Shown: piece by piece, positions 9,528 through 61,015 of the stretch
How the letters are laid out: every line of letters begins with the position of its first letter
Position numbering within the stretch: position 1 is the stretch's first letter
Origin: Sediminitomix flava
Lineage (GTDB): Bacteria > Bacteroidota > Bacteroidia > Cytophagales > Flammeovirgaceae
DNA length: 64,000 bases
Assembly (NCBI RefSeq): GCF_003149185.1
Contig: NZ_QGDO01000003.1
Span: 248,001 to 312,000 of the forward strand
Direction of reading: 5' to 3'
Position numbers and translations under genes: made by a program
The notes under the pieces: model-generated
The model's input: only the letters and a program-made list of their open reading frames with translations
What the model was told of the DNA's origin: nothing
Database searches by the model: none

Positions 9528-9937
9528 ATCTGAAAAATTAAATGAATGAATACTTCAAGGCGAGCCTTTTCAGTGTGTATTTTTTACGCCAATGAATTTA
9601 TGATCGTAAATATCATACTTCTCTGACTTTATTCTGGATGCCTAAGTTTGAATAAAAGTGGTCATATCTTCAATTCTTGAGAAATATACCCCATAAACAT
9701 TCTTTAGTTGGATTAAAAGAGCGGTAAAGGACAATGATCAGACCGTAATGAAACTACAAGAATCTTTTTCAGATGTTTTCTTTTTGAAGTAAGAATGTAC
9801 TTGATCTACCAATATTAAAATATATACCCTCTGATTTTCGAAATACCTCCCCAAGAGAGAGTGAGTGAGAGACTAATTTTACACTTATAAAATAAGTGTA
9901 TTTCGTACGGATTATTTCTACGCTCAAAATATCTATT
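9528..9937. other. Divergent intergenic region between sulfatase and small GLUG gene
   Basis: A 410-bp gene-free stretch. The right part holds the bipartite CCC site and -7-like element annotated at 9820-9881. A single ATATACCCC half-site occurs at 9684-9692 without a convincing partner or -7 element. No TAnnTTTG-like element for the leftward sulfatase could be identified with confidence. No hairpin or small gene was seen. Confidence 0.6.
9820..9881 (+). promoter_or_regulatory. Bipartite CCC regulatory site plus -7 element upstream of the small GLUG gene
   Basis: ATATATACCC (CCC at 9827-9829) is followed by a second block ATACCTCCCC (CCCC at 9849-9852), 22 bp from first C to first C. The second block ends 22 bp before TAATTTTA (9874-9881), one base from the Bacteroidota -7 consensus TAnnTTTG. 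The start codon is 57 bp further on. The same arrangement occurs at 11642-11704, 25641-25702 and, inverted, at 60954-61015. The second CCC block lies where a -33 element would be, which suits an activator that contacts RNA polymerase. Confidence 0.65.
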
Positions 9938-11605
9938 ATGGTTATCAAAAGAAGTATTTTATTCCTACTCGTATATGTTTTCTTAAATAATGTAGGTCAA
10001 GCTCAGACTAAGCCAAGTGGAGAGGGAACATTTTCAAATCCATTTCAAATAGAAGAACTTGATCATTTACGTTGGTTGGCTGAAGATGATAGTGAGTTTA
10101 CGGATGCTGAGAGGTGGGGGAAATATTACCAATTGATTGCCGATATTGATGCAAGTGCTACTAATGATGGGGGACAAGGTTTTACTCCCATTGGAAATAG
10201 TACAGATCAGTTTACAGGATCATTTGATGGACAGGCATATGTGATTTCAAATCTGTATATCAATAAACCAAGTTCAAATTACATAGGACTCTTTGGTTAT
10301 ATAGCAGCTGCAGGAAGAGTTAAAAACTTTGGATTAACGAATGTATCTATCATAGGGCAAAACTATGTTGGTGCGATAGCAGGTAGAAATGAAGGAACAG
10401 TAAAGAAAGTCTACTCTTCTGGTTCTGTAGAGGGAACAAATAAAACGATTGGGGGAATTGTGGGAGATAATGCGGTAAGTGGATCTTTAAAAAGAACGTA
10501 TTCATCGGCTAGTGTAAAAGGAGTAAAAAATGTAGGAGGACTTATTGGAGGAAATTTTGGTTCTGCAGTTATAGAAGAAAGTTATTCAACAGGAGCTGTA
10601 GATCCTACAGGGACTGATATCGGAGGTTTAGTTGGGAAAAATAATTCTAGTGTAGCTGTCAGTAGTTCATATTGGGATATTGAAACGTCTGGTTTAGGTA
10701 CTTCAGCAGGTTTGGATGAAACGTTATATGGTTTGACAACTTTAGAATTTGCCGATGCTTCTAATTTTTCATCTTGGGATTTTGATAGTAATTGGACATT
10801 GGCTACCTATAACATTGTAGATGGTTCAACTACTCGTCCTCATATTTTCATGTATACCATTACGGTGAGTCAAGGAGAAAATGGAGAAGTTAGTCCTTCT
10901 ACTGTTTCCTTATATAAAAGAGCATCGCAAACTTTTTCAATTATACCTGATACTAATTTTGAGATTTTAGAATTGAAAGTTGATGGCGATGTTGTACCTT
11001 CAGACTTGTCATATACATTCTCAGATATTGAATCAGACCATACTTTAGAGGTTACTTTTTATAATCCTTCAGGAACATTACCTGTACAATTAGTATATTT
11101 CGGGGGGAAAGTAGTCGATGAAAACATAAACTTAAACTGGACTACCGCAACAGAAACCGATAATTTGAGTTTTACGGTAGAGCGCAGTACTGATGGGGTA
11201 AATTTTAAAGCCTTAGGGAAGATCAATGGGCAGGGTAATTCTTTAAATATACATGAGTATACTTATACCGATCAGATGCCTTACATGGGTGATAACTTTT
11301 ACAGATTAAAAACAACAGATTTTAGAAATAGAATTGAATATTCAAGCGTCATATATATTCAACACATATTAGAACAACACACTTTAAAAATAATGCCTAA
11401 TCCAAGTTATGGAAAGTTCAAAATAATACATTCAGGAGTTTCTAATTTACAAATCCTGAATTTGGAAGGGCAGGTTATAGATGAACTAAAAGACAATACT
11501 TCAAACTTTATTCACATAGAATTAGCAGATAAGTACAAGGGACTCTTTTTAATTAGGTATTTTTTTAGAGGTCAATTTTACACGAAGAAGTTGGTCATCA
11601 ATTAA
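9938..11605 (+). CDS. GLUG-motif and InlB-type-repeat protein with T9SS sorting domain (short form)
   Basis: Start 9938 gives a signal peptide ending at GQAQ; the in-frame ATG at 9896 is less likely. The 555-residue protein begins with the module also found in its giant neighbour: DPY/NPF-Q-I-x-x-L-x-x-LRWL, RWGKYY, NIDAS-like, PIG, then a string of GLUG motifs (GLFG, VGAIAGRN, GGIVGDN, GGLIGGN, GGLVGKN) and a YWDIETSG segment (to about residue 310). One InlB B-repeat-like domain follows (about 315-385), then the LPVQLVYFGG...LNWTTATE...ERS domain common in T9SS cargo, and a sorting domain with MPNPSYG. It is likely a surface-exposed, non-enzymatic adhesin or glycan binder. It carries one unit where the neighbour carries ten, and has a similarly built promoter. 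Confidence 0.85.
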   Translation: MVIKRSILFLLVYVFLNNVGQAQTKPSGEGTFSNPFQIEELDHLRWLAEDDSEFTDAERWGKYYQLIADIDASATNDGGQGFTPIGNSTDQFTGSFDGQAYVISNLYINKPSSNYIGLFGYIAAAGRVKNFGLTNVSIIGQNYVGAIAGRNEGTVKKVYSSGSVEGTNKTIGGIVGDNAVSGSLKRTYSSASVKGVKNVGGLIGGNFGSAVIEESYSTGAVDPTGTDIGGLVGKNNSSVAVSSSYWDIETSGLGTSAGLDETLYGLTTLEFADASNFSSWDFDSNWTLATYNIVDGSTTRPHIFMYTITVSQGENGEVSPSTVSLYKRASQTFSIIPDTNFEILELKVDGDVVPSDLSYTFSDIESDHTLEVTFYNPSGTLPVQLVYFGGKVVDENINLNWTTATETDNLSFTVERSTDGVNFKALGKINGQGNSLNIHEYTYTDQMPYMGDNFYRLKTTDFRNRIEYSSVIYIQHILEQHTLKIMPNPSYGKFKIIHSGVSNLQILNLEGQVIDELKDNTSNFIHIELADKYKGLFLIRYFFRGQFYTKKLVIN

Positions 11606-11641
11606 AATATCCTTCAAAATCAATCAGAAATACACTTTTTA

Positions 11642-11704
11642 GATATTTCCCCTCTGAAATTAAAAATATGACCCCTTAGTGCGGTTTAAAGACTCCTAGC
11701 TTTG
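11642..11704 (+). promoter_or_regulatory. Bipartite CCC regulatory site plus perfect -7 element upstream of the giant GLUG gene
   Basis: ATATTTCCCC (CCCC 11649-11652) and ATATGACCCC (CCCC 11672-11675) form a direct repeat of ATATnnCCCC spaced 23 bp. The second copy ends 22 bp before TAGCTTTG (11697-11704), a perfect match to TAnnTTTG. The start codon is 63 bp downstream. This is the copy in which the two halves are most clearly the same word. No terminator hairpin was seen between the short GLUG stop (11605) and this site, so read-through is also possible. Confidence 0.7.
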
Positions 11705-11767: not shown

Positions 11768-14700
11768 ATGAGAAATTTTATACTACTCATATTAATTCTT
11801 CAATTTTCGAGCTTGAACTTGTTTGCTCAACAGCAGCCAAGCTTGGGAAGTGGAACATTAGAAGATCCATATCAGATTGAAAACTTAGCTCATTTAAGAT
11901 GGCTTTCTGAAGGTGGAAGTGATGGAACTAGCGAATCTGAAAGATGGGCATCTCATTATATTCTGACAGCAAATATTGATGCTTCTGAAACAAGTTCATG
12001 GAACTCGGGAGTAGGCTTTAAGCCCATAGGAAACGACACCCAGAATTTTACTGGAACATTTAATGGACAAGAAAATGTGATCAGTGGTCTGACCATTAAA
12101 AGACCTGCTGAAAAATATATCGGTTTGTTCGGCTTCCTTTCCGTGGGTGGTGTGGTAGAGCATTTAGGTTTGATAGATGTCAACACTGAAGGAGCTAATT
12201 TTACGGCTGGTTTAGTCGCAAAAAATAAAGGCGGTACGATATCAAAATGTTATGTGAGTGGCTCTGTAACTTCAACCGCAAAGCATATTGGAGGTTTAGT
12301 TGGAGATAATGCTTCTGATGGTAGTAATATAGGTACTGTGAGTCAATCATATTCTTTTACGAGTGTTACTGGTAATGAAAATGTAGGGGGACTAGTAGGA
12401 AGAAATAATACTAATTCAATCATTCAAGAATCATATGCAGTAGGATTGATCTCTGGGAATGCGAAATTTGGAGGTTTACTTGGTCTTAACTATGGAACTA
12501 TTGAAGATTCATTTTGGGATACTGATGTTTCGGGTATAAGTACTCCTATTGATACAGAAGTAGGTTTAACTACAGCTGAATTTGGGAATGCTTCGAATTT
12601 TTCAACATGGAACTTCACATCCGTATGGACTTTATCTACAGAAATTCTGGATATCAATGTCCGTCCTTATCTGTTTATCGTTCCTACAGTTGTAGAGCAC
12701 GATATTACTGTGAATACTGGTGCAAATGGAAGTATAAGTCCAGAAACTTCGACCGTGCTGGATGGCGAGGATGCAACGTTTTCAATCACTGCAGCAGTAG
12801 GCTATGAGATTTCAGGTGTATTGGTTGATGGTGTAAGTGTAGGGGCTGTGGAAAGTTATACTTTCGAAAATGTAACTACTGATCATACACTTTCAGCAAG
12901 CTTTGTCAAGTCTGTATATACAATCACAGTAACCTCAGGCAATCATGGTCAGATTAGTCCAAGTACAGCGAGTATTTCTTTTGATGAGGAGGTGACGTTT
13001 AGTATCACTGCAGATGTAGAATATGAAGTGTATTCAGTTCTTGTAAATGGAGTAGATCAAGACGCTATAACGACATATAAGTTTAGTGATATTTTCGAAG
13101 ATCAAAGCATTGAAGCTATTTTCATAAAATCGGGTTTGACAGTAGCAACTGTACCAACAGGAACAGGAGATATAGCAGACCCTTATCAGATCAGTACACT
13201 TTCAGAATTGAGGTGGCTTTCTGAGGGAATTGATGGCGGTATGACTGATGCAGATCGTTGGAACAAACATTATGTTTTAACATCAAATATCGATGCTTCA
13301 GAGACTGAGCATTGGAATTTGGAATCGGGCTTTAGGCCAATAGGAAATAATGGGAATGGTCTGAAATTCTTTGGTAGTTTTGATGGTCAAGAACATGTTA
13401 TTTCAAATCTTACGATAGATAGATCAACTGAAAAATATATTGGTTTATTTGGTTACTTGAAGGATGGTGCAGAAGTAAAGAATTTAGGTTTAATCGATGT
13501 TTCCATTTCAGGACAAAATTTTACGGGAGGTCTTATTGGTAAAAATGAGAAATCAACTGTAAGTCAGTGTTATGTGAGTGGTTCAATCACTTCAACAAAT
13601 AAAACTGTAGGAGGACTTGTAGGAGATAATGCAAATGAAGCTTTGGTTTCAAAATCTTATTCTTTTGCAGATGTAAGTGGAGTAACTAATGTAGGAGGAA
13701 TTGTAGGAGGAAATTATAGCTCAAGTAGCATATCTGAATGTTATGCTGTAGGATATGTAACAGGAACTACAGCCCTTGGTGGTTTGATAGGATTGAATAA
13801 TTCTGGCTTATCATTCACTGATTCTTATTGGGATATTGAAACAACGAATCAGTCTATTTCAGCAGGTTCTGATGAAAGTTTATTTGGTTTAACAACGGCT
13901 GAATTTTCAGATGCTACACAATTCATTGATTGGGATTTTACTTCTGACTGGGCAATCTATTCAACAACTTTGGATGCTAATCCACGTCCTTACCTTTTTA
14001 TTGACAGATTTACAGTAAGTGTAACAGAAAATGTAGGTGGAAGTATTTCACCTAGTACTACTGAATTTCTAAAAGGTGAAAATCAAATCTTTACGATAGA
14101 GGCAGCTACAGGTTATGAAGTAGCAGATGTTTTGGTAGATGGAGCAAGTGTTGGGGTAGTAGAGAGTTATACTTTTAATGATATTTCAACGGATCATACA
14201 ATCTCTGCTACTTTTGAGAAAGTACTTTATACGATTACAGCAACTGTAGGTGATCATGGTCAGATAAGCCCAAGTTCTGCAAGTTTATATTTTGATGAAG
14301 AGATAACTTTTACGATAACTCCTGATTTAGAATATGAAGTGTATTCAGTTCTTGTGAATGGAGAAGATCAAGGTGCTATCACAAGCTATACTTTTAGAGA
14401 TATTTATGAAGGTCAGAGTATTGAGGTTACTTTCATAAAGTCTGGTTTGACTGAAGCTACTATTCCAACAGGAACAGGAGACATATCAGACCCTTATCAG
14501 ATTAGTAATCTTTCAGAATTAAGATGGCTGTCTGAGGGAATTGATAGCGGTATGACTGATGCAGATCGTTGGAATAAACATTATGTTTTAACATCAAATA
14601 TCGATGCTTCGGAAACAGTACATTGGAATTCAAATCTAGGTTTTAGACCGATTGGAAATGATACTGATAATTTTAGTGGAAGTTTCGATGGGCAAGAGTT

Positions 14701-17700
14701 TGTGATAGACGGACTTACAATGGTACGAAGTGATGAGAAGTTTGTAGGTCTGTTTGGTGTAATATCGAGTGGAGAAGTCCAAAATCTTGGATTGACTTCT
14801 GTGGATATAGAGGGAAAGAATGCGGTAGGTAGTATTGCAGGGAAACTTGATGGTGCGAATATAGAAAGTTCTTATGCGAGTGGATCAGTTCAGATAACAA
14901 CAAAAAATGGAGGAGGATTAGTCGGTAGTATGACTAATGGCTCTATACTTGAGAAAGCATATTCATTTGTAAATGTTGATGGTCTCACAAATACAGGTGG
15001 TTTGGTTGGTGCCAATTATGGTTCAACAATACGAGAGAGTTATGCAGTAGGAAGTGTGTTGAGCACAGAAGCTTCAGTAGGAGGATTAGCAGGTTTAGCA
15101 GACGGTTCATCGCTAGTAGAAACCTCATATTGGGATGTTGAGACAACAACTCAATCAATTTCATCTGGATCAGATGAAAGTTTATTTGGTTTAACAACGG
15201 CTGAATTTTCAGATGCTACACAATTCATTGATTGGGATTTTACTTCTGACTGGGCAATCTATTCAACAACTTTGGATGCTAATCCACGTCCTTACCTTTT
15301 TATTGACAGATTTACAGTAAGTGTAACAGAAAATGTAGGTGGAAGTATTTCACCTGGTACTACTGAATTTCTAAAAGGTGAAAATCAAATCTTTACGATA
15401 GAGGCAGATGCAGGTTATGAAGTAGCAGATGTTTTAGTAAATGGAGCAAGTATTGGGGTAGTAGAGAGTTATACTTTTAATGATATTTCCTCGGATCATA
15501 CAATCTCAGCTACTTTTGAGAAAGTACTTTATACGATTACAGCAACTGCAGGTGATCATGGTCAGATAAGCCCAAGTTCTGCAAGTTTATATTTTGATGA
15601 AGAGGTAACTTTTACGATAACTCCTGATTTAGAATATGAAGTTTATTCAGTTCTTGTGAATGGAGAAGACCAAGGTGTGAACACGACCTATACTTTTAGA
15701 GATATTTATGAAGGTCAGAGCATTGAGGTTATTTTCATAAAGTCTGGATTGATTGAAGCTACTATTCCAACAGGAGCAGGAGACATATCAGACCCTTATC
15801 AGATTAGTAATCTTTCAGAATTAAGATGGCTGTCTGAGGGAATTGATAGCGGTATGACTGATACAGACCGTTGGAACAAACATTATGTTTTAACATCAAA
15901 TATCGATGCTTCGGAAACAGTACATTGGAATTCAAATCTAGGTTTTAGACCGATTGGAAATGATACTGATAATTTTAGTGGAAGTTTCAATGGACAAGAG
16001 TTTGTGATAGACGGACTTACGCTTGCACGAGGTGATGAGAAGTTTGTAGGTTTGTTTGGTGTAATATCGAGTGGACAAGTCCAAAATCTTGGATTGACTT
16101 CTGTGGATATAGAAGGGAAAAATGCGGTAGGTAGTATTGCAGGAAAACTTGATGGTGCAAATATAGAAAGTTCTTATGCGAGTGGATCAGTTCAGATAAT
16201 AACAAAAAATGGAGGAGGATTAGTCGGTAGTATGACTAATGGCTCTGTACTTGAGAAAGCATATTCATTTGTAAATGTTGATGGTCTCACAAATACAGGT
16301 GGTTTGGTTGGTGCCAATTATGGTTCAACAATACGAGAGAGTTATGCAGTAGGAAGTGTGTTGAGTACAGAAGCTTCAGTAGGAGGATTAGCCGGTTTAG
16401 CAGACGGTTCATCGCTAGTAGAAAATTCGTATTGGGATATTGAGACAACAACTCAATCAAATTCATTTGGATCAGATGAAAGTTTATTTGGTTTAATAAC
16501 AGCTGAGTTTTCAGATGCTACACAATTCATTGATTGGGATTTTACTTCTGACTGGGCAATCTATTCAACAGCATTAGATGCTAATCCACGTCCTTACCTT
16601 TTTATTGATAGATTTACAGTAAGTGTAACAGAAAATGTAGGTGGAAGTATTTCACCTGGTACTACTGAATTTCTAAAAGGTGAGAATCAAATCTTTACGA
16701 TTGAGGCAGATGCAGGTTATGAAGTAGCAGATGTTTTGGTAGATGGAGCAAGTGTTGGCGTAGTAGAGAGTTATACTTTTAATGATATTTCAACGGATCA
16801 TACCATCTCAGCAACTTTTGAGAAAGTACCTTATACGATTACAGCAACTGCAGGTGATCATGGTCAGATAAGCCCAAGTTCTGCAAGTTTATATTTTGAT
16901 GAAGAGGTAACTTTTACGATAACTCCTGATTTAGAATATGAAGTTTATTCAGTTCTTGTGAATGGAGAAGAACAAGGTGCTATCACAAGCTATACTTTTA
17001 GAGATATTTATGAAGATCAGAGTATTGAGGTTATTTTTATAAAGTCTGGATTGGCTGAAGCTACTATTCCAACAGGAACAGGAGATATAACAGACCCTTA
17101 TCATATTAGTAATCTTTCAGAATTAAGATGGCTGTCTGAGGGAATTGATGGCGGTATGACTGATACAGATCGTTGGAGCAAGCACTATATTTTGACATCA
17201 AATATCGATGCTTCGGAAACAGTACATTGGAATTTTGATCTAGGATTTAACCCGATTGGAAATGATACTGATAATTTTAGTGGAAGTTTCAATGGGCAAG
17301 AATTCAAAATTGAAGGTCTATCAATAAACCGTATAGATGATAAATTTGTAGGTTTATTTGGTGTTTTATCAAATGCAGAAGTTCAAAACTTAGGTCTTAC
17401 AGAGGTAAATATTATCGGTAAGAATGCAGTGGGAGCATTAGCAGGTAAAGCAGAATCTACAACTATTTATACTTCTTATGCAAGTGGGGAGTTATTGGCT
17501 ACTACTAAAAATGGAGGTGGTTTAGTCGGAAGTATGACTGCTGGCTCAATTCTGCAAAAATCATATTCTTTTGTAAATGTAGAAGGACTAACAAATACAG
17601 GAGGATTAGTTGGTGCAAACTACGGCTCTACAATTGATGAATGTTATGCAGTAGGTTCTGTCGTGAGTTCTGAGAATTCTAAAGGAGGAATAGTTGGTTT

Positions 17701-20700
17701 GGCTGATGGTTCTTCAATGATCACAAATACATTCTGGGATACAGAAACTTCTAGTATTACATCTGCGAAAAGTACTGAAGTAGGTTTAGCAACAATTGAT
17801 TTTTCTGATTCTTCAAATTTTGTGGATTGGGATTTTTCTTCTGATTGGGCAATTTATACCACAAATTTGAATGCGAACCCTCGTCCTTATTTGTTTATCG
17901 ATAGATACACGGTTAGTGTGAGTTCAGGTTTAGGTGGCCGTATATCACCAACGTCAAGTACTGTGGTAGAAAATGGAAATCAAACTTTTACAATAGTGGC
18001 TGATGCAGGCTACATATTATCTGATGTATTAGTTGATGGTTCAAGTGTTGGTGCTGTAGAAAGTTATACTTTCGAGAATGTAACAGGAGATCATACAATA
18101 TCAGCTAGTTTCGAAAAAGAACTTTATACAATAACTGCATCAGCTGGAAGTAATGGTCAAATTAGTCCAAGTACAGAAAGCATTTATTTTGACGAAGAGA
18201 AAACGTTTACAATATCAGCAGATTTAGGCTTTGAAGTCTATTCAGTGTCTGTCAATGGTGTTGACCAAGGCGCAATTACCGAATATACTTTTAGAGATAT
18301 TTATGAAAATCAGAATATTGAAGCTGTTTTTATCAGATCAGCAGTAGCACCTACAGGAAATGGTACTTTTACTGATCCGTATCTGATTAGTTCACTTGCA
18401 GGCTTACGTTGGTTATCAGAAAATACTGATGATGTCGACCGTTTGACAAAACATTATGTTTTAACAGATACAATAGATGCTTCAGAAACCTTAGATTGGC
18501 ATAATGGGAAAGGTTTTGTTCCAATAGGAGATGGTACTCATGCTTTTACAGGGAGTTTTAATGGGCAGACTAACCTTATTCAAGGGCTTGTAATTAATAG
18601 AGAAAATGAAGAATCTATTGGTTTATTTGGTCATTTAAAAGACGGTGCAAAAGTTAGAAGTATAGGATTAGTAGACTCGAACATCAAAGGGAAAAAGTTT
18701 GTTGGAGGTATTGCCGGTAAAAGTGAGGCATCTAGTATTGAGCAATGTTTTGTGACAGGAAAGGTAGAGGCAACGGATAAAACAGTAGGGAGTTTAGTCG
18801 GAGATAACTTTTCAAATGCATTTATCTATCGCGCTTATTCACTTGCAGGAGTAATAGGTGATAGTAATGTTGGAGGACTTGTTGGAAGAAATACAACAGA
18901 AGCAATGATTAAAGAGTCTTTTGCTGTTGGTCAAGTAATAGCAAACAGCAAAGCTGGAGGACTAATAGGAATTAATTATGCTACAGTCTTAGACTCATAT
19001 TGGGACAAGGAAACAACAGGACAGTTGGTTTCATCGGGTTCTGATGAATCAATTTATGGTTTGAATACAGTAGAGTTTGCAGATTCGAACAATTTTCCAA
19101 CTTGGGATTTTGAACATGCTTGGGAAATCGGAATAGAGGAGTGGGATGTTGTTTCTCGACCATATCTATATACAAATCAAGCACAAGAATTTGTTATAGA
19201 TGTTATTAAAAATACTGAAGGGGTATATACTTATGAAAAAGTATTTCTTTTTAGAGGAGAAAGTTTAGAATTCAGATTAGGGCAGCGTCCTGGTTATGTG
19301 CTATCAAATCTTTTGGTAAATGGCGATAGTTTAGGTCCTTTAGGTAGCTATATTTTCAAAGAGGTAGAAGAGAATCATACAATTGAAGGTGAATTTGAAA
19401 GAGAGCTATATCAAATCACAGTACTTCCTACTGAACATGGAAGTATAGATTTAGGAAATACGGAAATTTATGTTGACGAAGAAAAAAACTTCCAATTTAC
19501 ACCAGAAGTTGGTTATGAGGTTTTTTCAATTTTAGTCAATGGAAAGGTAAAGTCACCAAGTGATTCTTATACTTTTTCAAATGTAACTAAAGATCAGACC
19601 CTTGAGGTGTTATTTACCAAGTCTGGATTAACTTTAGCTTCAGAGCCCGAGAATGGAGATGGATCAGTTGAAAACCCTTATGAGATTGGTACATTAGCAG
19701 AATTGAGATGGTTATCAGAAGGAGGGAATGGTGCACCAAAAAATTCTGTCCGTTGGGCAATGCATTATATTCTTACTGATACAATTAACGCAATAGAAAC
19801 ACGAGAGTGGAATGCAGGTTATGGTTTTACTCCGATAGGTGATGATAATAACAAGTTTAAAGGGACTTTTGACGGTCAAGGTAATTACATTGACAGTCTA
19901 TATATTCAGAGAGAAACGGGTAAAGTAGGACTTTTTGGTCAGATCAAAGAGGCTAAGATTAAACGTGTGAATTTAAGGAATGCCGAAATAGAAGGAAGTA
20001 GTGTTGTTGGAGGTTTAGTAGGAAAGGCATCTTGGTCTATTATCGAAAATGTATCTGTAACTGGAGGTATTTCAGCCGTAAGTAAAAGTGTTGGAGGAGT
20101 TGTCGGGGAGTTAACTGAGAATTCTGTTTTATTAAGAGCTTCATCTTTTGCATCTGTATATAGCCCAAAAAATGTAGGTGGTTTAGTCGGAGCAAATTAT
20201 TCATCAAGTTTAGTGCAAAGTTATGCTGTAGGTTTAGTGAATGGCTCTGACAAAACAGGAGGGCTTATTGGTATTGAAAATACAACAGCGACAGTATTAG
20301 ATTCATATTGGGATCGTGTAACAACAGGACAATTAGTTTCTGCAGGTTCTGATGATACTTCAGGTTTATCGACTGCAGATTTTGAAGTCGCTACAAATTT
20401 TGAGAATTGGAATTTTGTAGATGTTTGGAATATTGAGTTAAAGGACGAATTTAATAATACACCTCGACCATATTTATTATCGGTAGAGCCTTCTAATACT
20501 TATTCGATTACAGTAGTAGAAAGTGATAGTGGACAAATATCTCCAACAACTATTCAGTTGGCAGAAAATGAGCGCATGTCATTTAATATTGTTCCTAATA
20601 AAGGTTTTGAAATTGAGCAACTTAAAATAGATGGAGTAGATCAAGGTGTTTTGACAAAATATACCTTCGATGCAATTCAGTCTAACCATGAAATCGAGGC

Positions 20701-23700
20701 GAAATATAAAGAAGTTGTTTATAATATATCTTTGAGTTACTCTATAAATGGAACAGTAACAGAAAGTGATACAGAAACGCCTTTACAAATTACTTTTGAT
20801 GATTCTAGAACTTTCACTTTTATGCCTGAAGATGGTTATGAAGTTTCTTCTGTCTTAGTTAATGGAAAGGAGAAAGGTGTCGTAACAGAATATACATTTA
20901 CGGATGTTTTTGAAGATCAAACCTTAGAGGTGTTCTTTACAAAATCGGGCCTTACATTAGCTTCTATGCCGGCTAAGGGCTACGGAACAATTGATGATCC
21001 ATACCAAATTGAAACACTTTCAAATTTAAGGTGGCTATCGGAAGGAGGATCATCAACATCAAATGATTTGGCTAGTGGAAGTAGATACTTTTTATTGAGT
21101 AATGAAATTGATGAAAGTCAAAATACAAGTGAGCAACTAACAGGTAGGGATGTAAGTACAAAAGAACGCTGGAATAGCCATTACATTCTTATCGATAATA
21201 TTAATGCTTCGGGTAGCAAAGATTGGAATTCGGAATTAGGTTTTAGTCCGATTGGTACAGAAGACATACCTTTTAAAGGAACTTTCAATGGACAAGGTTT
21301 TACCATCGATTCTTTAGTTATTAATAGACCAAATGATAATAATATTGGACTATTTGGTTTTACTGAAGGAACTTATGTAGAACAAGTTGGTCTAACTAAT
21401 GTAAGTGTTACAGCTAATGCTTTTGTTGGTGGACTGGTAGGAAAAGTATATGGTTCGACGATTGAAAGAACGTATGTCTCAGGTAATATTTCTGTTACAG
21501 ATAAGAATGTCGGAGGATTAGTGGGAGAACTAAATAAAGGTTCTCTGATTCATAAATCGTATTCTTTGACAAATGTATTTGGAGCCAAAAATGTGGGAGG
21601 TCTTGTAGGGGCAGCATATACATCAGATGTTTTAGAAAGTTATGCTGTAGGTCAAGTTTTAGGATCTAGTAATACAGGAGGTTTAGTAGGAACTACAAAT
21701 TCTTCAGCTCAAATTCTAAAGTCATACTGGGACAAAGAGACGAGTAATCAGGCAAGTTCATCAGCTTCTGCAGATGCTTTTGGACTGATAACTTCTGAGT
21801 TTAATACCTCTTTGAGTTTTGAAGACTGGAATTTTGAGAATTCATGGAAGCTTGAGAATATCAGTTCATTAGACAGTGTCGCTCGTCCTCATTTATTCTT
21901 ACATGAGTCATTACCACTCTATACAATAGAAGTATTGGAAAGTGAAGGAGGGCAAATTAGAAGTAGAACTCTACAGATGAATCAGAGTGATTCCGTCAGA
22001 TTCAAAATACAAGCAGATGCAGGTTACCAGATCGCAGATGTATTGGTTGATGATGAAAGTCAAGGAGCTCTGTCTGCGTATACCTTTGTAGATGTAAATT
22101 CATCACAAACGATTTCAGCTACTTTTGATAAAATAGACTACACAATTACGTTTATTACTGATAAATATGGAAGTGTTGATTCAGGTGATACCACTATTCA
22201 ATTTGATGAAGTAAAGACCTTTAATTTTCTTCCTGAAGACGGCTATGAAGTGTATTCAGTTAAACTGAATGGGGAAGAACAATTGGTGTCAGAGTCATAT
22301 ACCTTCAAAAATATATTTGCCAATCAAACGCTAGAGGTCTTCTTTATCAAATCAGGATTGGCCGTTGCAACAGAACCAACAATGGGTACAGGAACAGACT
22401 CTGATCCTTATCAAATCAGTAATCTTTCAGAATTGCGATGGTTGTCTGAAGGTTTGGAAACAGGAATGTCTGATTCAGTCCGTTGGAGCAAGCACTATTT
22501 GGTTACAGAAAATATAGATGCGTCAGAGACATTCCACTGGAATTTGGAAGAAGGATTTTCACCGATCGGTACAGACAAAATACCATTTACAGGTAGTTTG
22601 AATGGTCAAGGTTTTGAGATTGATTCCCTGACAATTAATAGATCAGAAGGTAAACAAGTAGGATTGTTTGGTTTTGTGTCAGATGCTCACATTCATCAAT
22701 TAGGCTTAACAGATGTCTCACTTTTAGGTAAATCATCTATTGGAGGTCTAGCAGGTAAAGCTGTTGGCTCGATCATAGAACGAGTTTATGTAAGTGGAGA
22801 TTTAGAATCTACAGAGAAATCAATTGGTGGACTAATTGGAGAGATTGGTAAAAATACTTTTGTTCACCGAAGCTTTTCACTAGCCAATGTTACAGGAATT
22901 AGAAATGTCGGAGGACTTTTAGGAGCCTGTTACAATTCAAGTGTGCTAGAAAGTTATGCTGTAGGTAAAGTTTTAGGAGAAGAAAATAACGGCGGTTTAG
23001 TAGGGCAAGTAAACTCAACTGCCAAGGTTGAAAAGTCTTATTGGGATACAGAAACTACTCAGCAGACTGTATCAGCAGGTTCAAAAGCGAAGTTTGGATT
23101 GATTAGCGAGAACTTTGCAGCAGACAGTAGTTTCGTGGATTGGAACTTAGATGTAGTTTGGAGTCTAGAAACAGTTTCTGAATTGGATAGTTTGGTCAGG
23201 CCTTATTTATTCCGAGATGGAAATACGAATGTTCACTTTATCAGTGTAGCAGATAGTGTAGGAGGAAGTATAAGTCCGAGAAGCTTGAGTTTAACTGAAG
23301 GAGAAACAAGAGTTTATAAAATTAAAGCAGAAAATGGTTATCAGATTGTAGATGTGTTCGTCGACTCTGTAAGTCAAGGAGCTTTAAGTGAATATACTTT
23401 TGTAGAGGTTTCTTCTGCACATTCGATTTCAGCAAGTTTTGAGAAAATTCCTTATGAGATTACGGTAAATGTAGGAAACCATGGCGAGGTAGATTCGTCA
23501 AGTACGACGATTTTCTATGATGAAGTGAAGACCTTTAAGTTCACCGCAGATGAAGGTTATGAGGTTCATTCAGTCTATGTGAATGGTGAAGATTTGGGAG
23601 TGATTTCGGAATATACTTTCCAAGATATATTTGCTAATCAAACGCTTGAAGTCTTCTTTATCAAATCAGGATTGGCCGTAGCAACAGAGCCAACAATAGG

Positions 23701-25518: not shown

Positions 25519-25640
25519 ATGGCTGAATTTTAGAGTTGATACTTTTAACATCTACATATCTTAAAAACAGAAAAGTTATTGGTTTGAAGGTTACTTTTTA
25601 AAAGTAGGGTCTATGATACTTTAAAGGCAGGTAATTAAAG

Positions 25641-25702
25641 ATATATACCCTTCTATTTTTGAGATTTCACCCTTTTTGCAATTTTCTTTAAGTGTACTTT
25701 TG
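25641..25702 (+). promoter_or_regulatory. Bipartite CCC regulatory site plus perfect -7 element upstream of the PUL
   Basis: ATATATACCC (CCC 25648-25650) and GATTTCACCC (CCC 25670-25672) are exactly 22 bp apart. The second block ends 23 bp before TACTTTTG (25695-25702), a perfect TAnnTTTG. The beta-mannosidase start is 77 bp further on. This is the only gene-free stretch of more than 300 bp before the PUL (25448-25779); apart from the terminator at its left end and this site, I see nothing else in it. Confidence 0.7.
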
Positions 25703-28389: not shown

Positions 28390-28399
28390 ATTTTCTTTC

Positions 28400-28447
28400 A
28401 GAAAGGGTTCTTTAGCAATCAGAACCTAAAGAACCTTTCTACTTTTT
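28400..28447 (+). terminator. Intercistronic hairpin (attenuator or partial terminator)
   Basis: AGAAAGGGTTCTTTAG (28400-28415) pairs with CTAAAGAACCTTTCT (28426-28440) with a single bulged G, followed by ACTTTTTAA. It is strong enough to terminate, yet the next gene starts 25 bp later on the same strand with no obvious promoter. Partial termination or mRNA end protection are both plausible. Confidence 0.65.
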
Positions 28448-28472
28448 AAGTTACACTCAGAAGATAGTAAAG

Positions 28473-40477: not shown

Positions 40478-40495
40478 GGCGCTAAATACTTTATT

Positions 40496-43513: not shown

Positions 43514-43517
43514 TGAT

Positions 43518-45206
43518 ATGACCATGAAAAAACATTTTTTACTTTTTCTTTTTATCATCTGTTTGAGCTCATGTCAAGATTATTTAGAGACAGATTTTGA
43601 TGGTTCTGTAGATGATGAGATGGTATGGAGCAATCCTAAGTATGCTGAAGGAGTACTGCTAAATGCATATCATGCGTTACCAAACAGCTTTGCATTGGAA
43701 GATCATATTTTCATGGATTGTATGACAGATAATGCTGTTACGAATGACTACAGTTCTTCTATCTTTATAAATGGAAATGGGGCTTGGCGAGCCGAAAATA
43801 ATATTCTTGGAGATTGGAATAAGTATTACGCACAGCTTGAAAACATAAACCTTTGGCTAAAATATGGTCAAACTGCACCTTATTATCTATCTGACAAAGG
43901 TTTGAATACTCAAATTGTGATGCGTCTGAAAGGAGAAGCATACTTTCTGAGAGCATGGTACACTTGGCAATTACTTCAAGCTTATGGAGGGAAAGTTGAT
44001 GGCGTTCTGATGGGAATTCCTTTACAAACAAAAGCCTTAGAAAATAACACTGATAAGTATGAAGCGATAGAAAGAGATACTTATGAAGACTGTATTTCAC
44101 AGATTGTTTCTGATTGTAATAAAGCAATTGAATTATTGCCCCCAACTTATGAAGGAACTGATCTGGTATTTGGCGAAGATCAAACAGGTCGAGCTAATTT
44201 AACAGCTGCTTTCGCCTTAAAATCTCGTGTTTTGCTATACGCAGCTAGCCCATTATTTGAAAAAGAATCTTGGTCTGCTGCTGCAAGAGCCGCTTTAGAT
44301 GCTATTAATCAAAAGGGAGAAAGCTTGCCAGGGATCAAATGGGGAAACTTGGATAAGTATTACAATAGTCAAAATCATAATGAGATCATCCTACGAAAGT
44401 TTACGAGAAATAATTCATTCTTTAGAGCGAATTTTCCTCCTTCATCAAATGGTTCAGGAAGAACAAGCCCATCTCAAAATTTAGCCAAGAGCTTTTACAT
44501 GGCCAATGGTTATCCACAAGATCATGAGCTGAGTGGTTTTGATCCTAATAAACCATTTGAGGGACTGTCTAAACGTTATTACGCATCTATTGTGCATAAT
44601 GGGATGAAGTTTAAAAACAAAAGTATTGAGACCTACGAAGGTGGTTTTGATACAGAACAAACTTTTGTACATGCTACTCGCACAGGACATTATTTGAGAA
44701 AGTGGATGGCCGAATCAGCGAGTACGGACGGTCTAGATGAAAGTGTAGCAACACATTATTATGCTTTGTTCCGTCAGGCAGAATTGTGGTTAAATTTTGC
44801 CGAAGCTGCCAACGAATGGGTTGGGCCAGATGTGAAATTAGGCTTTGGAGGTGTGACCTTGAGTGCTAAGGATGCAATTTTAGAAATCCGTAATAGAGCA
44901 GGAATAAAAGATACAGCATACCTAGATGAAGTAGCAGCACAAGGGAAAGATGCTTTCAGAGAATTAATCAGAAATGAAAGAAGAGTAGAGTTGTGTTTTG
45001 AAGGTCATCGTTTTTGGGATTTAAGAAGATGGAAAAGTGATTTGAACTCAGAAGTGAATGGACTCCAAATTACAATGAATGCAGATAGTAGCTTTTCTTA
45101 TCAAGAGGTACTTGTAGAGCAAAGAAACTTTCAAGACTATATGTACTTTGGTCCGATACCTTTTGATGAGGTAAGAAAGGGTTTGAGACAAAATGATGGA
45201 TGGTAA
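43518..45206 (+). CDS. SusD-type surface glycan-binding lipoprotein (second of tandem pair)
   Basis: About 560 residues; a second in-frame ATG at 43524 is the alternative start. The lipobox is CLSSC. Typical SusD blocks are present: AYFLRAWYTWQLLQAYGG with a nearby MGIPLQ, the ALKSRVLLYAASPLF helix, QAELWLNFAEAANEW, AILEIRNRAGI and the C-terminal LIRNERRVELCFEGHRFWDLRRW, ending FGPIPFDEVRKGLRQNDGW. It forms the lid of the second SusC. The SusE-like gene follows 18 bp later. Confidence 0.95.
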   Translation: MTMKKHFLLFLFIICLSSCQDYLETDFDGSVDDEMVWSNPKYAEGVLLNAYHALPNSFALEDHIFMDCMTDNAVTNDYSSSIFINGNGAWRAENNILGDWNKYYAQLENINLWLKYGQTAPYYLSDKGLNTQIVMRLKGEAYFLRAWYTWQLLQAYGGKVDGVLMGIPLQTKALENNTDKYEAIERDTYEDCISQIVSDCNKAIELLPPTYEGTDLVFGEDQTGRANLTAAFALKSRVLLYAASPLFEKESWSAAARAALDAINQKGESLPGIKWGNLDKYYNSQNHNEIILRKFTRNNSFFRANFPPSSNGSGRTSPSQNLAKSFYMANGYPQDHELSGFDPNKPFEGLSKRYYASIVHNGMKFKNKSIETYEGGFDTEQTFVHATRTGHYLRKWMAESASTDGLDESVATHYYALFRQAELWLNFAEAANEWVGPDVKLGFGGVTLSAKDAILEIRNRAGIKDTAYLDEVAAQGKDAFRELIRNERRVELCFEGHRFWDLRRWKSDLNSEVNGLQITMNADSSFSYQEVLVEQRNFQDYMYFGPIPFDEVRKGLRQNDGW

Positions 45207-45224
45207 AATGTAAATACCAATGGC

Positions 45225-46073
45225 ATGAAAAATATATTTTTAGTATTGAGTAGCGTATTCTTTTTATCAAGTTGTGCTTATGAAGACTACTTGAATGATT
45301 TTGATACAACAACTACTTATTTTTCTTATCAGAAACCAGTCAGAACACTGATTTTAGACGAGTATGAATCTATAAAAGTAGGAGTGTCATTTGGAGGGAG
45401 AAGAGAAAATACATCTCAAGAGTGGGCTGATTTCGAGATTGTTCCAGAGTTGTTAGCTGGAACACCTTTTGAAATATTACCTTCTTCAATGTATTCACTC
45501 AGTGATCCTTCTAGAATGGTAATCCCCAAAGGAGAATTTCAAGGTGTGATACAAGTCGATTTTGATCTAGAAGCTATATCAAATGATCGAGATCCGAATA
45601 CTTTATATGCTTTGCCATTTCAATTGACATCTACTTCTTTAGATGTAATTCATGATGAAAAAGACTATACGATAATAGCCTTGAAATATATCCATTTATT
45701 AGATGGACTTTGGTATCATAAGGGTAAGTCTGAAGTAACTGATATAGAAAAAGATTCAACCTTCTGGATAGTTTATTCACAAGAAAGTTTACAGAAAAAT
45801 GAGCATTGGAACTTGAATACTGAAGATGCAAATGCCGTAAAAACTACTGGGATAGCCGATAGGTCAGAAGGAATGGAAATACAATTGGAAGGTGAAGAGT
45901 TGATTTTAACCTCTGATGAAGTTTCCGATTTTCAACAGCATGAATGTAGCTATAATCAAGAAAGTAAAGAGTTATACTTACAGTATTCTTTTGAAAAGGA
46001 TAATATGGCTTATAACGTAACAGATACCTTGATTTTTGCGACTAGAAATATAGAATTCGAACTCTGGGAATAG
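45225..46073 (+). CDS. SusE-like lipoprotein with DUF1735-type domain
   Basis: A 282-residue lipoprotein (lipobox FFLSSC, C17). The N-terminal half has the DUF1735/BT_3987-type beta-domain seen in accessory proteins encoded after susD (TTTYFSYQKPVRTLILDEYESIKVGVSFGG...MVIPKGEFQGVIQVDF...LYALPFQLTS). The C-terminal half (about 160-282) is a separate beta-rich domain with WYHKGKSEV and ends FELWE, perhaps the glycan-binding part. It is the last gene of the PUL operon; a terminator follows 44 bp after the stop. A surface glycan-binding role is inferred from position and domain type. Confidence 0.8.
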   Translation: MKNIFLVLSSVFFLSSCAYEDYLNDFDTTTTYFSYQKPVRTLILDEYESIKVGVSFGGRRENTSQEWADFEIVPELLAGTPFEILPSSMYSLSDPSRMVIPKGEFQGVIQVDFDLEAISNDRDPNTLYALPFQLTSTSLDVIHDEKDYTIIALKYIHLLDGLWYHKGKSEVTDIEKDSTFWIVYSQESLQKNEHWNLNTEDANAVKTTGIADRSEGMEIQLEGEELILTSDEVSDFQQHECSYNQESKELYLQYSFEKDNMAYNVTDTLIFATRNIEFELWE

Positions 46074-56710: not shown

Positions 56711-59700
56711 TTAACTTTCCGTTTTCTCTATTTTTCTGTATTTCTTCAAATACTCAGAAGGAGTGATATCGAAGTACTTTTTGAAATTGGAACGGAAATA
56801 TTTAGCATCATTAAACCCGACCAAGAATTGAATCTCTTTGATTGAATTATCGGTATTGGCGATTAATTTTGCAGCATGTTTCAATCGAATAAGTCTGATG
56901 TATGCTGTAGGTGATACATTATCATATTTTTTTAGTCGGTTGTAAAGTGTTGCATAGGTCAGTCCCATTTTTTCAGCAAAAATCTGCGTATCAAAGTCGG
57001 TTTCTAATAAATTATCTTCAACTACCTTTTGAGCTTTTACCAAGAATGCTTCTTTTTCTGGGTCAGAAGATTGTAGACTTGCATCTTTTTTAGTCGCAAA
57101 AAACTGTTTTACAGATTTTCGTTCTTCTAACAAATTTGTAATAGTTGCCTTTAAATAGTTATTCTTAAAAGGCTTCGTGATGTAAGCATCAGCACCACTT
57201 TTTATACCTTCTAGTTTATCGACATCATTACTTCTTGCGGTTAGTAAAATGATTGGAATATGATTGAGCATGGCATTGCTTTTAACCTGTTTACAAAGTT
57301 CAATACCATCCATTTCATCCATCATCACATCTGATATAATTAGGTCAGGAATTTCTTTTCTCGTTTTATCCAACCCTATTTTTCCATTAGAAGCTATAGA
57401 AATATTGTAAAGTTGGTCTAATTCGTTTTTCAGATAAGCAGCAATATCTTCATTGTCTTCAACAATCAAAATACTCTGCTTTTTCTCATCTTTGGTTTCC
57501 TCTGTAGTATTGTTGACTTCAAGGACTTTCTTAGGCTTCTCTTTGACTTTCTCCTTAGCTAATTCATCTGGTTTCATGAAGGAATTTCCAGTAGGGAAAG
57601 TCAAGATAAACTTCGTTCCTTTTCCTTTTTCACTTTCAAATTCAATTTTACCATAATGAGCATCAACCAATTCTTTTACTAACGCAAGTCCTATACCTGA
57701 TCCTCTATCCGTTTTGTTTTTGGTCTGATAGAATAGCTTGAACAGATTTTTTTGATCTTCTTTATCAATACCAATTCCTGAGTCACTCACACAAATCTGA
57801 AACTCTTTATCTGTTTTCTGATGAATATCAACCAAGATATTTCCTCCCTTAGATGTGTTTTTGAAAGAATTGGAAACAAGATTGTAGATGATTTTCTCAA
57901 TTGAATCTTTATCAATCCAAGTATTCAGTTTATCGATGTGCGAATGGAAAGAATAGTTGATCTTGTTGTCTTTGGCTATATTCTTAAATGATGAAGTTAC
58001 CATTCGACAGAATTTGATCACCTCAACTTTTTCAAAACTTACTTTGTGATTGCCCGTTTCAATCTTTCTGAAATCAAGCAATTGATCAAAGAGTACCAAT
58101 AAACGATCTGTGTTTTGCTTCATTGTGCTTAAGTATTCCTTTACTGAAGCATTAAGACTTTCATCTTGCAATAGATTTTCTAATGGACTAGAAATAAGTG
58201 TTAGAGGTGTTCTGAGCTCGTGTGAAATATTTACAAAAAAGCGAATTTTCATGAGGGTAAGTTCCTCTGTCTTTTGAGCTTTAAAATGCTCTAATTCTAG
58301 TTGTTGTTTTAACTTATGCCTATTGATAATTAATTCGTTTATTTTCCAAATGATGAGAAACAGAATTACCGCATAAGATAAAAATGCTATCCAAGTAAGC
58401 CACCAAGGAGTTTTAATGATTATCTCTAGCTCTCGAATATGCTCACTTTTGATTCCATCACTACTGACTGCTTGAACTTTAAATGTATATTTTCCATGCT
58501 TAAGGTTTGAGTAAACCACAGAGCTTCTGCTTGTACTCATCCATTGTTGGTCAAATCCTTCTAATTTATATCTAACATGATTTTTTGAAGGATTACCGAA
58601 GTGCAAAGGCATAAAACCTATCTCAATATTATTCTGATTGTGAGCGAGGATGACTTTGTTTGTTTCTCCTAATGTTTTAGGTAAAATAATATCACCATTT
58701 ATGGTATCTCCTTGCGAAATTGGTTTACCGAATAGCGAGAATGATTCCAATACAATCTGTGGAGAGGTAGGATTGCTCTGGTACACGTTTGGCTGTATTT
58801 TGTTCAAGCCTTTATTTGAAACAAAAAGCAGTTCACCTTTGTCGGTATTGATTGCATTTCCAATTCTGAAAAAACTACCTAGAATACCATCATTGGTATC
58901 ATACTTATGGACTTGATGATTCTTGATGTTGATTGTATTCAATCCATTACTTCCAATCCATAGGGTAGAAGATGCTTTGTCGAAGGCTAAAGATTGAATA
59001 GAGTTTGAGCTTAATCCATTAGACTTTCTAAAGACTTCTAGATTTGATTGTTTGAAGTTTAAGCTATCAAAAGTTAGTTTATATAATCCATCTTCTACAG
59101 AACCTACCCAAAGGTGTGACTTGGAAGTTCTGAGCATTTCCCAACAAAAGTTGTTGGGTAGGGGAAAGTTCTTTTTCTCTGTGTTATAATGTGAAAAATA
59201 TGTACGATTAGTTTCATCTTTTATCTTGCAGATACCATCAGGAGAACTCATCCAAAGACAATTTTCGATGGTATCATGATATAAGTGATTTACTGTATTA
59301 CTTATAATTTGGTTTGAAGCTTTTACTTTCTGTCTATACTTCAGTTTTTCTACTTTAGAGATTCTTCCATTAGCCTCAAATGAGACTTTATTCAGTCCGC
59401 GTTTGAATGTACCTATATAAAGTTTGTTGTTATACATCTCTACCGATGTGATGATATTAGAACTTAACAGCTCATTTTTCACATTCTTGAAACGTATATT
59501 TCCTTGCTTTTCTTTAGATAGATCAATCTTCCGAAGACCATTTCCCCAACTTGCAATCCATAAGTTTCCAAAAGGGTCTTCACAAAAATCTTCGATACTT
59601 CCTTCGCCTTGAGTACTTTCTCCAAAAATCTGATGTCTAGAATATCTTTTTACTTTTCCTTCACTCAATTTAATGATAGAACCGCTATTTAAACCAAGCC

Positions 59701-60820
59701 ATGTCTGACCGAATTTATCTTCATAAGTTGAGTTTACTTTTTCTTTTTCAAGTTCGGGTAAGTAGAGATTTTCAAGTGGAAGCGAAAATGAACTTGTGGA
59801 GTTTATCCCAGCTGTAGAAGCTACCCATAAAACATCAAATCTGTCTTTATAAACGGCATTGATTGTATTGCTGAGTAATGAGTTTCGCTTGTTTTGCTCA
59901 CTTCTGTATAAATCGAATTTGTATTTTCTATACTCAGAGGAAGTGATGCATATTTTGAGTAAACCATTTTTTGAACCACACCAAAGTGCTTGTTTGTCGG
60001 GGTAAATAGCACTAAATCCTAGATTTTGAGCATATTTTGGGAGACTTACTTCGTTTAAAACGATCTGTTTTGGGTTTGAAAAGGATTCTGATGAAAGGGT
60101 AAATAATTGAGTAGGTGTGGCCACCCAAATTTGATTATTGAAGGATTGTATTGAACGTATATTTTTATGTTTTAGAAGAGATTGATCGATGGAATGATAA
60201 GTTTGATCTTCCAAATCAAAAATTAATAGTCCTTTCTTTCGTGTACCTATCAGAAGAAAATTCTTATTGAGAGTCCAAACTTGAGAAATTGATATATCTC
60301 CATTTTGGTATGGGAAATGAGTTACTTCTTTTGTTAGAGTATTCAGTTGGAATAATGCATTTCGGAGTGTTCCGATCCATAAATTAGATGAGCTATCTTC
60401 AGAAATACTTAAAATACCAAACTCTTTATCGGTGATTTTATAATGATCAAAAGTCTCACTTTGGGGCAGGTATTTATTTACTACACCATCTCTCGTACCG
60501 ATCCAAAGATTTTCTTGACGGTCTTCAAATAAAGTACTTACTCTACTTGAACTCAAACTACTTGTGTCAGAAGAATTATGAAAGAAAGACTTTATTTCAA
60601 ATCCATTGTATCTGTTTAATCCATGGTTGGAACCAAACCACATATAGCCTTTCTGATCTTGAACCACAGAAGTAATATTGGTATGAGATAAGCCAATATC
60701 GGTTGTGATTTCTCTAAAGTTTAGGGCTTGAGTATTTGAATTGCTTTGGGAAAATACAGATGTATTTATAAAACAATATAGTATAGGTATCAATAAAAAA
60801 TGCTTCAATCTCATCTTCAT
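56711..60820 (-). CDS. Hybrid two-component system regulator (HTCS)
   Basis: A 1369-residue one-protein sensor/regulator (start 60820, or the ATG at 60814). After the signal segment, a long periplasmic sensor of two-component propeller repeats (about 30-700; repeated LWIGT, LWVAS, LWMSS words) and a Y_Y_Y domain (about 730-800) precede one membrane helix (WWLTWIAFLSYAVILFLIIW). The cytoplasmic part has HisKA with H867 in NISHELRTPL, an HATPase with GIGIDKEDQ and GSGIGLALVKEL, a receiver with phospho-acceptor D1164 in ISDVMMDEMDG and TARS/KPFK, and an AraC-type DNA-binding domain. HTCS proteins sense oligosaccharides and switch on PULs. Its own promoter carries the bipartite CCC site shared with the PUL and GLUG genes. 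Confidence 0.95.
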   Translation of the reverse strand: MKMRLKHFLLIPILYCFINTSVFSQSNSNTQALNFREITTDIGLSHTNITSVVQDQKGYMWFGSNHGLNRYNGFEIKSFFHNSSDTSSLSSSRVSTLFEDRQENLWIGTRDGVVNKYLPQSETFDHYKITDKEFGILSISEDSSSNLWIGTLRNALFQLNTLTKEVTHFPYQNGDISISQVWTLNKNFLLIGTRKKGLLIFDLEDQTYHSIDQSLLKHKNIRSIQSFNNQIWVATPTQLFTLSSESFSNPKQIVLNEVSLPKYAQNLGFSAIYPDKQALWCGSKNGLLKICITSSEYRKYKFDLYRSEQNKRNSLLSNTINAVYKDRFDVLWVASTAGINSTSSFSLPLENLYLPELEKEKVNSTYEDKFGQTWLGLNSGSIIKLSEGKVKRYSRHQIFGESTQGEGSIEDFCEDPFGNLWIASWGNGLRKIDLSKEKQGNIRFKNVKNELLSSNIITSVEMYNNKLYIGTFKRGLNKVSFEANGRISKVEKLKYRQKVKASNQIISNTVNHLYHDTIENCLWMSSPDGICKIKDETNRTYFSHYNTEKKNFPLPNNFCWEMLRTSKSHLWVGSVEDGLYKLTFDSLNFKQSNLEVFRKSNGLSSNSIQSLAFDKASSTLWIGSNGLNTINIKNHQVHKYDTNDGILGSFFRIGNAINTDKGELLFVSNKGLNKIQPNVYQSNPTSPQIVLESFSLFGKPISQGDTINGDIILPKTLGETNKVILAHNQNNIEIGFMPLHFGNPSKNHVRYKLEGFDQQWMSTSRSSVVYSNLKHGKYTFKVQAVSSDGIKSEHIRELEIIIKTPWWLTWIAFLSYAVILFLIIWKINELIINRHKLKQQLELEHFKAQKTEELTLMKIRFFVNISHELRTPLTLISSPLENLLQDESLNASVKEYLSTMKQNTDRLLVLFDQLLDFRKIETGNHKVSFEKVEVIKFCRMVTSSFKNIAKDNKINYSFHSHIDKLNTWIDKDSIEKIIYNLVSNSFKNTSKGGNILVDIHQKTDKEFQICVSDSGIGIDKEDQKNLFKLFYQTKNKTDRGSGIGLALVKELVDAHYGKIEFESEKGKGTKFILTFPTGNSFMKPDELAKEKVKEKPKKVLEVNNTTEETKDEKKQSILIVEDNEDIAAYLKNELDQLYNISIASNGKIGLDKTRKEIPDLIISDVMMDEMDGIELCKQVKSNAMLNHIPIILLTARSNDVDKLEGIKSGADAYITKPFKNNYLKATITNLLEERKSVKQFFATKKDASLQSSDPEKEAFLVKAQKVVEDNLLETDFDTQIFAEKMGLTYATLYNRLKKYDNVSPTAYIRLIRLKHAAKLIANTDNSIKEIQFLVGFNDAKYFRSNFKKYFDITPSEYLKKYRKIEKTES

Positions 60821-60953
60821 CTCGGTTCTTTGTTTAGTTATTAAGAAGCTTGTCTGTTGGTCAATTGTAAAAAGTACTCTTGCACAAAAGTAAGATAATT
60901 TCAGGCTTTAATACTTAAAATAGAATTGTACTTTTTTATAATTTTTTATATGC

Positions 60954-61015
60954 TCAAGATATAGCCCTTTCTTTGTTTGGAAGGGGATTTATTTCAAAAG
61001 AGAGGGTGTATATCT
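60954..61015 (-). promoter_or_regulatory. Bipartite CCC regulatory site plus -7-like element upstream of the HTCS gene
   Basis: On the minus strand, AGATATACACCC (61015-61004) and AAATCCCC (60990-60983) form the same two-block site, 20-21 bp apart. The second block ends 22 bp before TATCTTGA (60961-60954), a degenerate TAnnTTTG. The HTCS start is 133 bp further on. The match in spacing with the three plus-strand sites suggests autoregulation. The rest of the 355-bp gap (60821-61175) shows only the palindrome next to the cytochrome gene. Confidence 0.55.

Follow-up and report, generated by a model that had tools for sequence, protein, structure and literature searches.

We analysed a 64,000-nt stretch of the Sediminitomix flava genome (contig NZ_QGDO01000003.1, positions 248,001 to 312,000, here called the window and numbered from its first letter) and found a paired CCC site at four promoters. 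These belong to a short and a giant GLUG protein gene, a beta-mannosidase operon and a gene for a hybrid two-component system (HTCS) regulator. The paired site is a direct repeat with the consensus AAGATATAnACCCYTYT followed by AAATnnnACCCCTT; it is specific, conserved together with the HTCS locus, and placed at a near-constant offset from the -7 promoter element. Judged from sequence, the sites most likely define a real, small and conserved regulon with the HTCS as its regulator.

The motif ATATnnnCCC begins at 9820, 11643 and 25641 on the forward strand and at 61013 on the reverse strand. Operator 1 (9817..9857, forward), upstream of the short GLUG gene, has C-runs at 9827 and 9849, 22 bp apart, and a -7 element, TAATTTTA (9874..9881), with one mismatch to TAnnTTTG. 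Operator 2 (11640..11680, forward), upstream of the giant GLUG gene, has C-runs at 11649 and 11672, 23 bp apart (22 bp between the aligned half-sites), and is followed by the perfect TAnnTTTG element TAGCTTTG (11697..11704). Operator 3 (25638..25678, forward) precedes the beta-mannosidase operon; its C-runs at 25648 and 25670 are 22 bp apart and its -7 element, TACTTTTG (25695..25702), is again perfect. The weakest member is operator 4, upstream of the HTCS gene (60978..61016, reverse), with C-runs at 61006 and 60986, 20 bp apart. Its best -7 candidates carry two mismatches and lie at an offset of 25 nt (TATCTTGA, 60954..60961) and, equally good, of 23 nt. Thus, a primary-sigma -7 element with at most one mismatch is present at three of the four window sites, in each case with its TA 25 nt from the first C of block 2. 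An earlier note on this DNA had reported two CCC blocks in four upstream regions, perfect -7 elements at two of them and a second block in place of the -33 element. All four pairs were found where it had placed them, the giant GLUG and beta-mannosidase elements are the two perfect ones, and block 2 is located about where a -33 element would be. The fixed spacing that the note had also claimed holds from block 2 to the -7 element, whereas the distance between the blocks varies from 20 to 23 bp and hence by up to 3 bp.

That such an agreement of four sites is unlikely by chance was borne out by simulation: the two-block grammar was present at four places in the window, compared with a mean of 0.18 and a maximum of 2 in 300 order-3 Markov sequences as long as the window. 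A near-identical pattern gave five rows (four places) in the window versus a mean of 0.32 and a maximum of 3 in 100 dinucleotide shuffles. Across the genome, the minimal grammar returned 16 rows corresponding to 14 places, 10 of them outside the window, and the reversed control returned 17 rows; the minimal two-block grammar by itself is not specific. Despite this, four places in 64 kb are clearly a cluster, since the frequency in the remainder of the genome would predict about 0.1. When up to three mismatches were allowed, a fuller pattern of 33 bases matched the 6.6 Mb at these four places only, and its control gave no match. Since both patterns were composed after the sites had been seen, the tests that count are those with cross-validated profiles, which avoid this circularity.

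A search of 57 other genomes (E <= 1e-150, with scoring limited to 10 candidates per genome) revealed HTCS orthologues, with 48-50% identity, in G010, G014, G016 and G017 only. The same four genomes contain beta-mannosidase orthologues with 65-67% identity, and homologues in other genomes showed 41-46%. The gene order is the same in three relatives, where all genes run in one direction: HTCS, GLUG genes, sulfatase, beta-mannosidase, three sulfatases, a GH42-like enzyme, two SusC/SusD-like pairs and a BT_3987-like protein. The G017 locus is split across two contigs, and in the window the HTCS gene and one sulfatase gene are turned round.

Profile R2 was built from three of the four window sites, leaving out the HTCS site, whose 2-bp gap was not placed in its alignment. 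Its top match was the beta-mannosidase promoter in G014, G010, G017 and G016 (E values 2.2e-7, 9.2e-6, 9.9e-6 and 4.7e-5, respectively; at these sites, G017 and G010 hardly differ). Operator 3 is therefore kept in four relatives. In 13 other genomes of the family, two of which (G009 and G011) are less than 90% complete, R2 gave noise with a best E value of 0.0101 or weaker. Profile R1 was built from six sites of three relatives without any window site, and its matches at these training sites, which lie in G010, G014 and G016, are in-sample. In the whole S. flava genome, R1 ranked the window sites 1, 2, 3 and 6 of 27, namely operator 2 (32.8 bits), operator 3 (31.8 bits), operator 4 (19.1 bits) and operator 1 (17.4 bits); the third rank of operator 4 rests on model positions 3-50, without the -7 part. 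Going by these ranks and by the R2 top matches, the profiles do not spread over many unrelated promoters, the outcome that the earlier note had named as speaking against a regulon.

The higher-ranked R1 and R2 matches in the S. flava genome were also inspected as candidates for a fifth member, the lower R1 ranks not individually. C3:964743, C4:315060 and C2:976830 were rejected as they are all inside reading frames, and C2:771748 as it matches only positions 23-59 of the 77 model positions.

The recurrence of operator 3 also bears on whether duplication or chance produced the four sites, with the paralogous GLUG genes having been copied together with their promoter and the two remaining sites being coincidental. 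The two GLUG genes are adjacent, and the short protein shares 48% identity with the initial part of the giant protein. The best conserved promoter, however, is that of the beta-mannosidase gene, which is not a paralogue and whose site recurs in four relatives at nearly the same -7 offset. Together with the low chance expectation for the window (0.18), this makes duplication or coincidence hardly credible.

Further sites were sought with a half-site matrix derived from the four window sites and the beta-mannosidase sites of three relatives; the -7 element did not enter its ranking. The second half-sites of the training set were anchored 25 nt before the TA, which equals the start of the C-run in six of the seven, G016 being the exception. 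In G010, G016 and G014, this ranking pointed to seven additional sites in forward orientation. These genomes have eight GLUG genes between HTCS and sulfatase; a site of this kind, weak in some cases, precedes six of them, and the seventh site precedes a 611-aa protein without Pfam match in G016. The -7 element provides an independent check: it is found with at most one mismatch at 25 nt in six of the seven further sites and as a perfect match at 26 nt in the seventh, a level reached by 1.4% of intergenic positions. One of these elements, CACCTTTG, is without the first T. Considering all 14 forward sites, a good -7 element lies at 25 nt in 12 and at 26 nt in one, and the window HTCS site has none that good. 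The half-site distance is 20-23 bp throughout. The half-sites correlate in direct orientation (r of 0.76, 0.45 and 0.67 at lags of -1, 0 and +1) and at most at 0.17 when one is inverted. Directly before a SusC gene, the half-site matrix ranking revealed no operator; operator 3 precedes a gene run that includes two SusC/SusD-like pairs. The site before the 611-aa protein (G016:C9:195822-195891) lies at the end of the G016 cluster, and this gene is a possible extra member of the regulon.

At three of four window sites and in 12 of the 14 forward sites, half-site 2 lies 25 nt from a -7 element that deviates from the consensus by one base at most. Such regular placement is also what a general promoter feature of this lineage would show, either an alternative -33 box or a site for an ECF sigma factor, and the level of the minimal grammar outside the window, equal to the reversed control, would suit such a feature too. 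For Bacteroidota primary-sigma promoters, a -7 element TAnnTTTG and a -33 element TTTG have been reported in B. fragilis, whereas in Flavobacterium johnsoniae no -33 motif was identified according to the same source (PMC7366714), so that an absent -33 element alone says little. The window promoters have the same -7 element, perfect in two of four, whereas a CCC-rich half-site takes the position of TTTG at about -33. A -7 element of the ordinary primary-sigma type argues against an ECF site, and an upstream repeat two helical turns off is unexpected for a sigma site. CCC pairs with a -7 element at this distance are moreover rare. In 435 kb around other Y_Y_Y-type sensors (a set that comprises part of these sensors and includes C2:987716, of SpoIIE type), eight intergenic CCC pairs lie upstream of genes, compared with three in a 400-kb control. 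Pairs of 19-25 bp with a -7 element at 24-27 nt numbered three versus none, two of the three being in one mannan-type locus. Taken together, we consider a general promoter feature very unlikely. A general HTCS grammar, consisting of a CCC pair and a -7 element at 24-27 nt, was likewise rejected, as there are too few cases.

Several observations weigh against a regulon of all four promoters under the HTCS. Two S. flava sites that are not members (C2:771748 and C2:976830, 18.3 and 17.9 bits) outscore operator 1 under R1. In genomes without the HTCS, R1 reaches E values of 0.0032 (G003), 0.0037 (G007) and 0.0079 (G001); the window HTCS site (0.0069) and the short GLUG site (0.024) fall within this noise, and only operators 2 and 3 exceed it. 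The seven further sites were picked from ranked lists for preceding genes of the locus, and their scores (two of 24, four of 15.7-18.9 and one of 11.6) compare with 16.2 for the best row inside a reading frame. No site was found with the half-site matrix before the GLUG genes G010:55662 and G016:170763. Several second half-sites of the relatives read CC, CAC or CTC instead of CCC, and in the beta-mannosidase site of G016 the 25 nt are counted from the fourth C of six, the first C being 28 nt away. Operator 4 is at noise level with R2 (13.2 bits, E value 0.71), and the strongest untrained site, G014:C2:517337 with a score of 31.9, precedes the HTCS gene on the opposite strand and lacks a -7 element. 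According to PMC6874557, regulators of the HTCS kind are typically expressed constitutively at a low level, which speaks against autoregulation. Finally, the HTCS and the gene cluster co-occur in the same genomes, and the phyletic pattern therefore cannot separate the HTCS from any other gene of the cluster.

Activation of the HTCS gene itself through operator 4 is doubtful. The upstream regions of the HTCS genes in three relatives gave opposite-strand sites in G014 and G016, and none was found in G010. The site in G016 (G016:C9:161691, reverse strand) is operator-like and has no -7 element behind it. Closer to the HTCS start in the window, a perfect TAnnTTTG, again TACTTTTG, was read by eye at 60885..60892 on the reverse strand; it possibly belongs to a separate basal HTCS promoter. 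The earlier note had tied both GLUG genes, the beta-mannosidase operon and the HTCS gene together. For the first three this linkage is supported, and the HTCS gene, with its poor -7 element and its R2 score within the noise, is the weakest of the four.

The HTCS is encoded at 56711..60820 on the reverse strand. The protein of 1369 aa combines a Reg_prop propeller sensor, Y_Y_Y, HisKA, HATPase_c, Response_reg and an AraC-type HTH_18 domain in one chain, and no other regulator was recognised in the gene block that the loci have in common. Its HTH domain is 79-82% identical across the four orthologues, versus 24-44% in 15 other HTCS-like proteins, whereas its sensor is just 35-38% identical to those of the same orthologues. 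A conserved HTH domain beside a diverged sensor is expected if the DNA target is conserved while the ligand-binding part drifts. The direct repeat with 20-23 bp between its blocks fits the dimeric AraC-type regulator envisaged in the earlier note, and corresponds to predictions for Bacteroides HTCSs. Synteny and conservation thus point to this protein, and we consider it likely that the HTCS binds the tandem operators and activates transcription through them.

Alternatively, the operators might be real and bound by another regulator, a stand-alone AraC-type protein or a paralogous HTCS, with the HTCS encoded at the locus being a mere neighbour. Candidates for such a role exist. The S. flava genome yielded 20 matches to Y_Y_Y. 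Of these, 12 lie in frames of 1265-1418 aa and thus of HTCS size, one or more of which do not encode an HTCS. In addition, the end of the G016 cluster encodes a stand-alone AraC-like protein of 320 aa, identified by eye. Against this, the HTCS is the sole recognised regulator of the common block, its HTH domain is far better conserved than its sensor among the genomes that share the operator, and direct repeats spaced by two turns are what is known for HTCSs. We therefore regard binding by another regulator as unlikely.

The operator type is already known from Bacteroides. In B. thetaiotaomicron, 16 HTCS motifs have been predicted, all of them direct repeats and on average 21 bp apart, and HTCS dimers on one face of the DNA have been proposed (PMC3878776, Ravcheev et al. 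2013). Those operators lie upstream of SusC/SusD operons with the HTCS gene adjacent and, like the ones described here, were inferred by phylogenetic footprinting. The study covers other genomes, and the text available of it does not allow a comparison with ATATnACCC. What is newer here are the GLUG proteins and the spacing to the -7 element, neither of which is mentioned in the portion of that text examined. DNA binding has been demonstrated by gel shift for the HTCSs BT4663 and BT4124 (PMC11253607, 2024), which likewise combine sensor kinase, receiver and DNA-binding domain in one chain and act on a susCD promoter; binding was measured for these proteins, whereas here it is deduced from sequence. 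HTCSs together with Flammeovirga are mentioned in a paper on xylan use (PMC12125979).

In the likely mechanism, the HTCS would sense a glycan and phosphorylate its own receiver domain. A dimer of its AraC-type domain would then occupy both half-sites, which are separated by two turns of the helix, on the same side of the DNA. The proximal of these, located 25 nt before the -7 element, would cover about -33, and the activator would replace the missing -33 contact, with its proximal unit touching and recruiting RNA polymerase bound at the -7 element. In this way the beta-mannosidase/sulfatase/SusCD operon and two GLUG proteins exported by the type IX secretion system (T9SS) would be switched on as one small regulon. 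Binding and activation by the HTCS, their dependence on phosphorylation and the role of the GLUG proteins are all steps that we infer.

The sites provide a candidate HTCS operator outside the genomes of the 2013 Bacteroides study and a promoter geometry precise enough for reporter constructs. They also tie giant GLUG surface proteins to a polysaccharide locus through common promoter sites. The window has such sites, and so do its relatives, where their strength varies. A wider interpretation, which we offer tentatively and at somewhat less than an even chance, would be that giant T9SS-exported GLUG repeat proteins function at the surface to hold or present the glycan in mannoside-type polysaccharide loci and are induced by the HTCS together with the enzymes, and that promoters of this HTCS type keep a rigid geometry, with 25 nt from the proximal half-site to the -7 element, while the half-site distance may vary by 3 bp. 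In the literature searched, we found no joint treatment of GLUG proteins and type IX secretion. GLUG was found with polysaccharide utilisation loci in a single paper, a DUF1735 study, and the GLUG motif with adhesins in two archaeal genome papers.

The short GLUG gene (9938..11605, forward strand) encodes 555 aa with a T9SS sorting tail and, by eye, a signal-peptide-like N-terminus; the ATG at 9938 is its probable start, in preference to the listed GTG at 9896. The giant GLUG repeat protein (11768..25447, forward strand) has 4559 aa and also ends with a T9SS sorting tail. Downstream of operator 3, the gene run at 25780..46073 (forward strand) encodes a GH2 beta-mannosidase, three sulfatases, a GH42-like enzyme, two SusC/SusD-like pairs and a BT_3987-like protein. 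The run is a probable operon and would be read as one transcript; its gene order is the same in three relatives. The inverted sulfatase gene of the window (8169..9527, reverse strand), for which no site of its own was found, has a homologue in three relatives that follows the GLUG genes in the same direction.

A second locus of the S. flava genome (C1:1217849-1244454) encodes an HTCS, a 3376-aa GLUG protein, two GH26 enzymes, SusC/SusD and a sulfatase. Its HTCS, SusC and sulfatase genes are preceded by CCC pairs with a distance of 22-25 bp, and no such pair was seen before its GLUG gene. The -7-like elements lie at 25 nt for the HTCS and 26 nt for the SusC gene, with one mismatch each, and that of the sulfatase gene has two mismatches. 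Coming from one genome, these pairs give hints of a sister operator.

The idea that GLUG genes always lie beside HTCSs was rejected; the link is common and not universal. Of the five GLUG-type frames in the S. flava genome, three belong to the two HTCS loci, and a fourth is in the vicinity of a beta-mannosidase homologue. This fourth frame (C3:643539-647711) encodes a GLUG-type protein of 1390 aa, one reading frame away from the homologue, and no Y_Y_Y match is listed near it. The fifth, on C2, is near a SpoIIE-type sensor, and the seven neighbours that were scanned included no polysaccharide genes.

Between the operon and the HTCS gene, positions 46285-56595 of the window encode an MFS transporter, an M16 peptidase, a TonB receptor, a SusD-like protein and two unknown proteins; in the examined stretches of G010, G016 and G014, no close homologues of these were seen at the corresponding place. 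On the other side of the HTCS gene, a cytochrome-c-like protein with CXXCH, TPR and HEAT matches (61176-63290) is encoded divergently, and the two genes have a common upstream region. An odd fusion is present near the start of the window (314-5974), where one frame of 1886 aa combines beta-lactamase-like, PKD, GHL10 glycosidase-like, golvesin-type and T9SS sorting domains.

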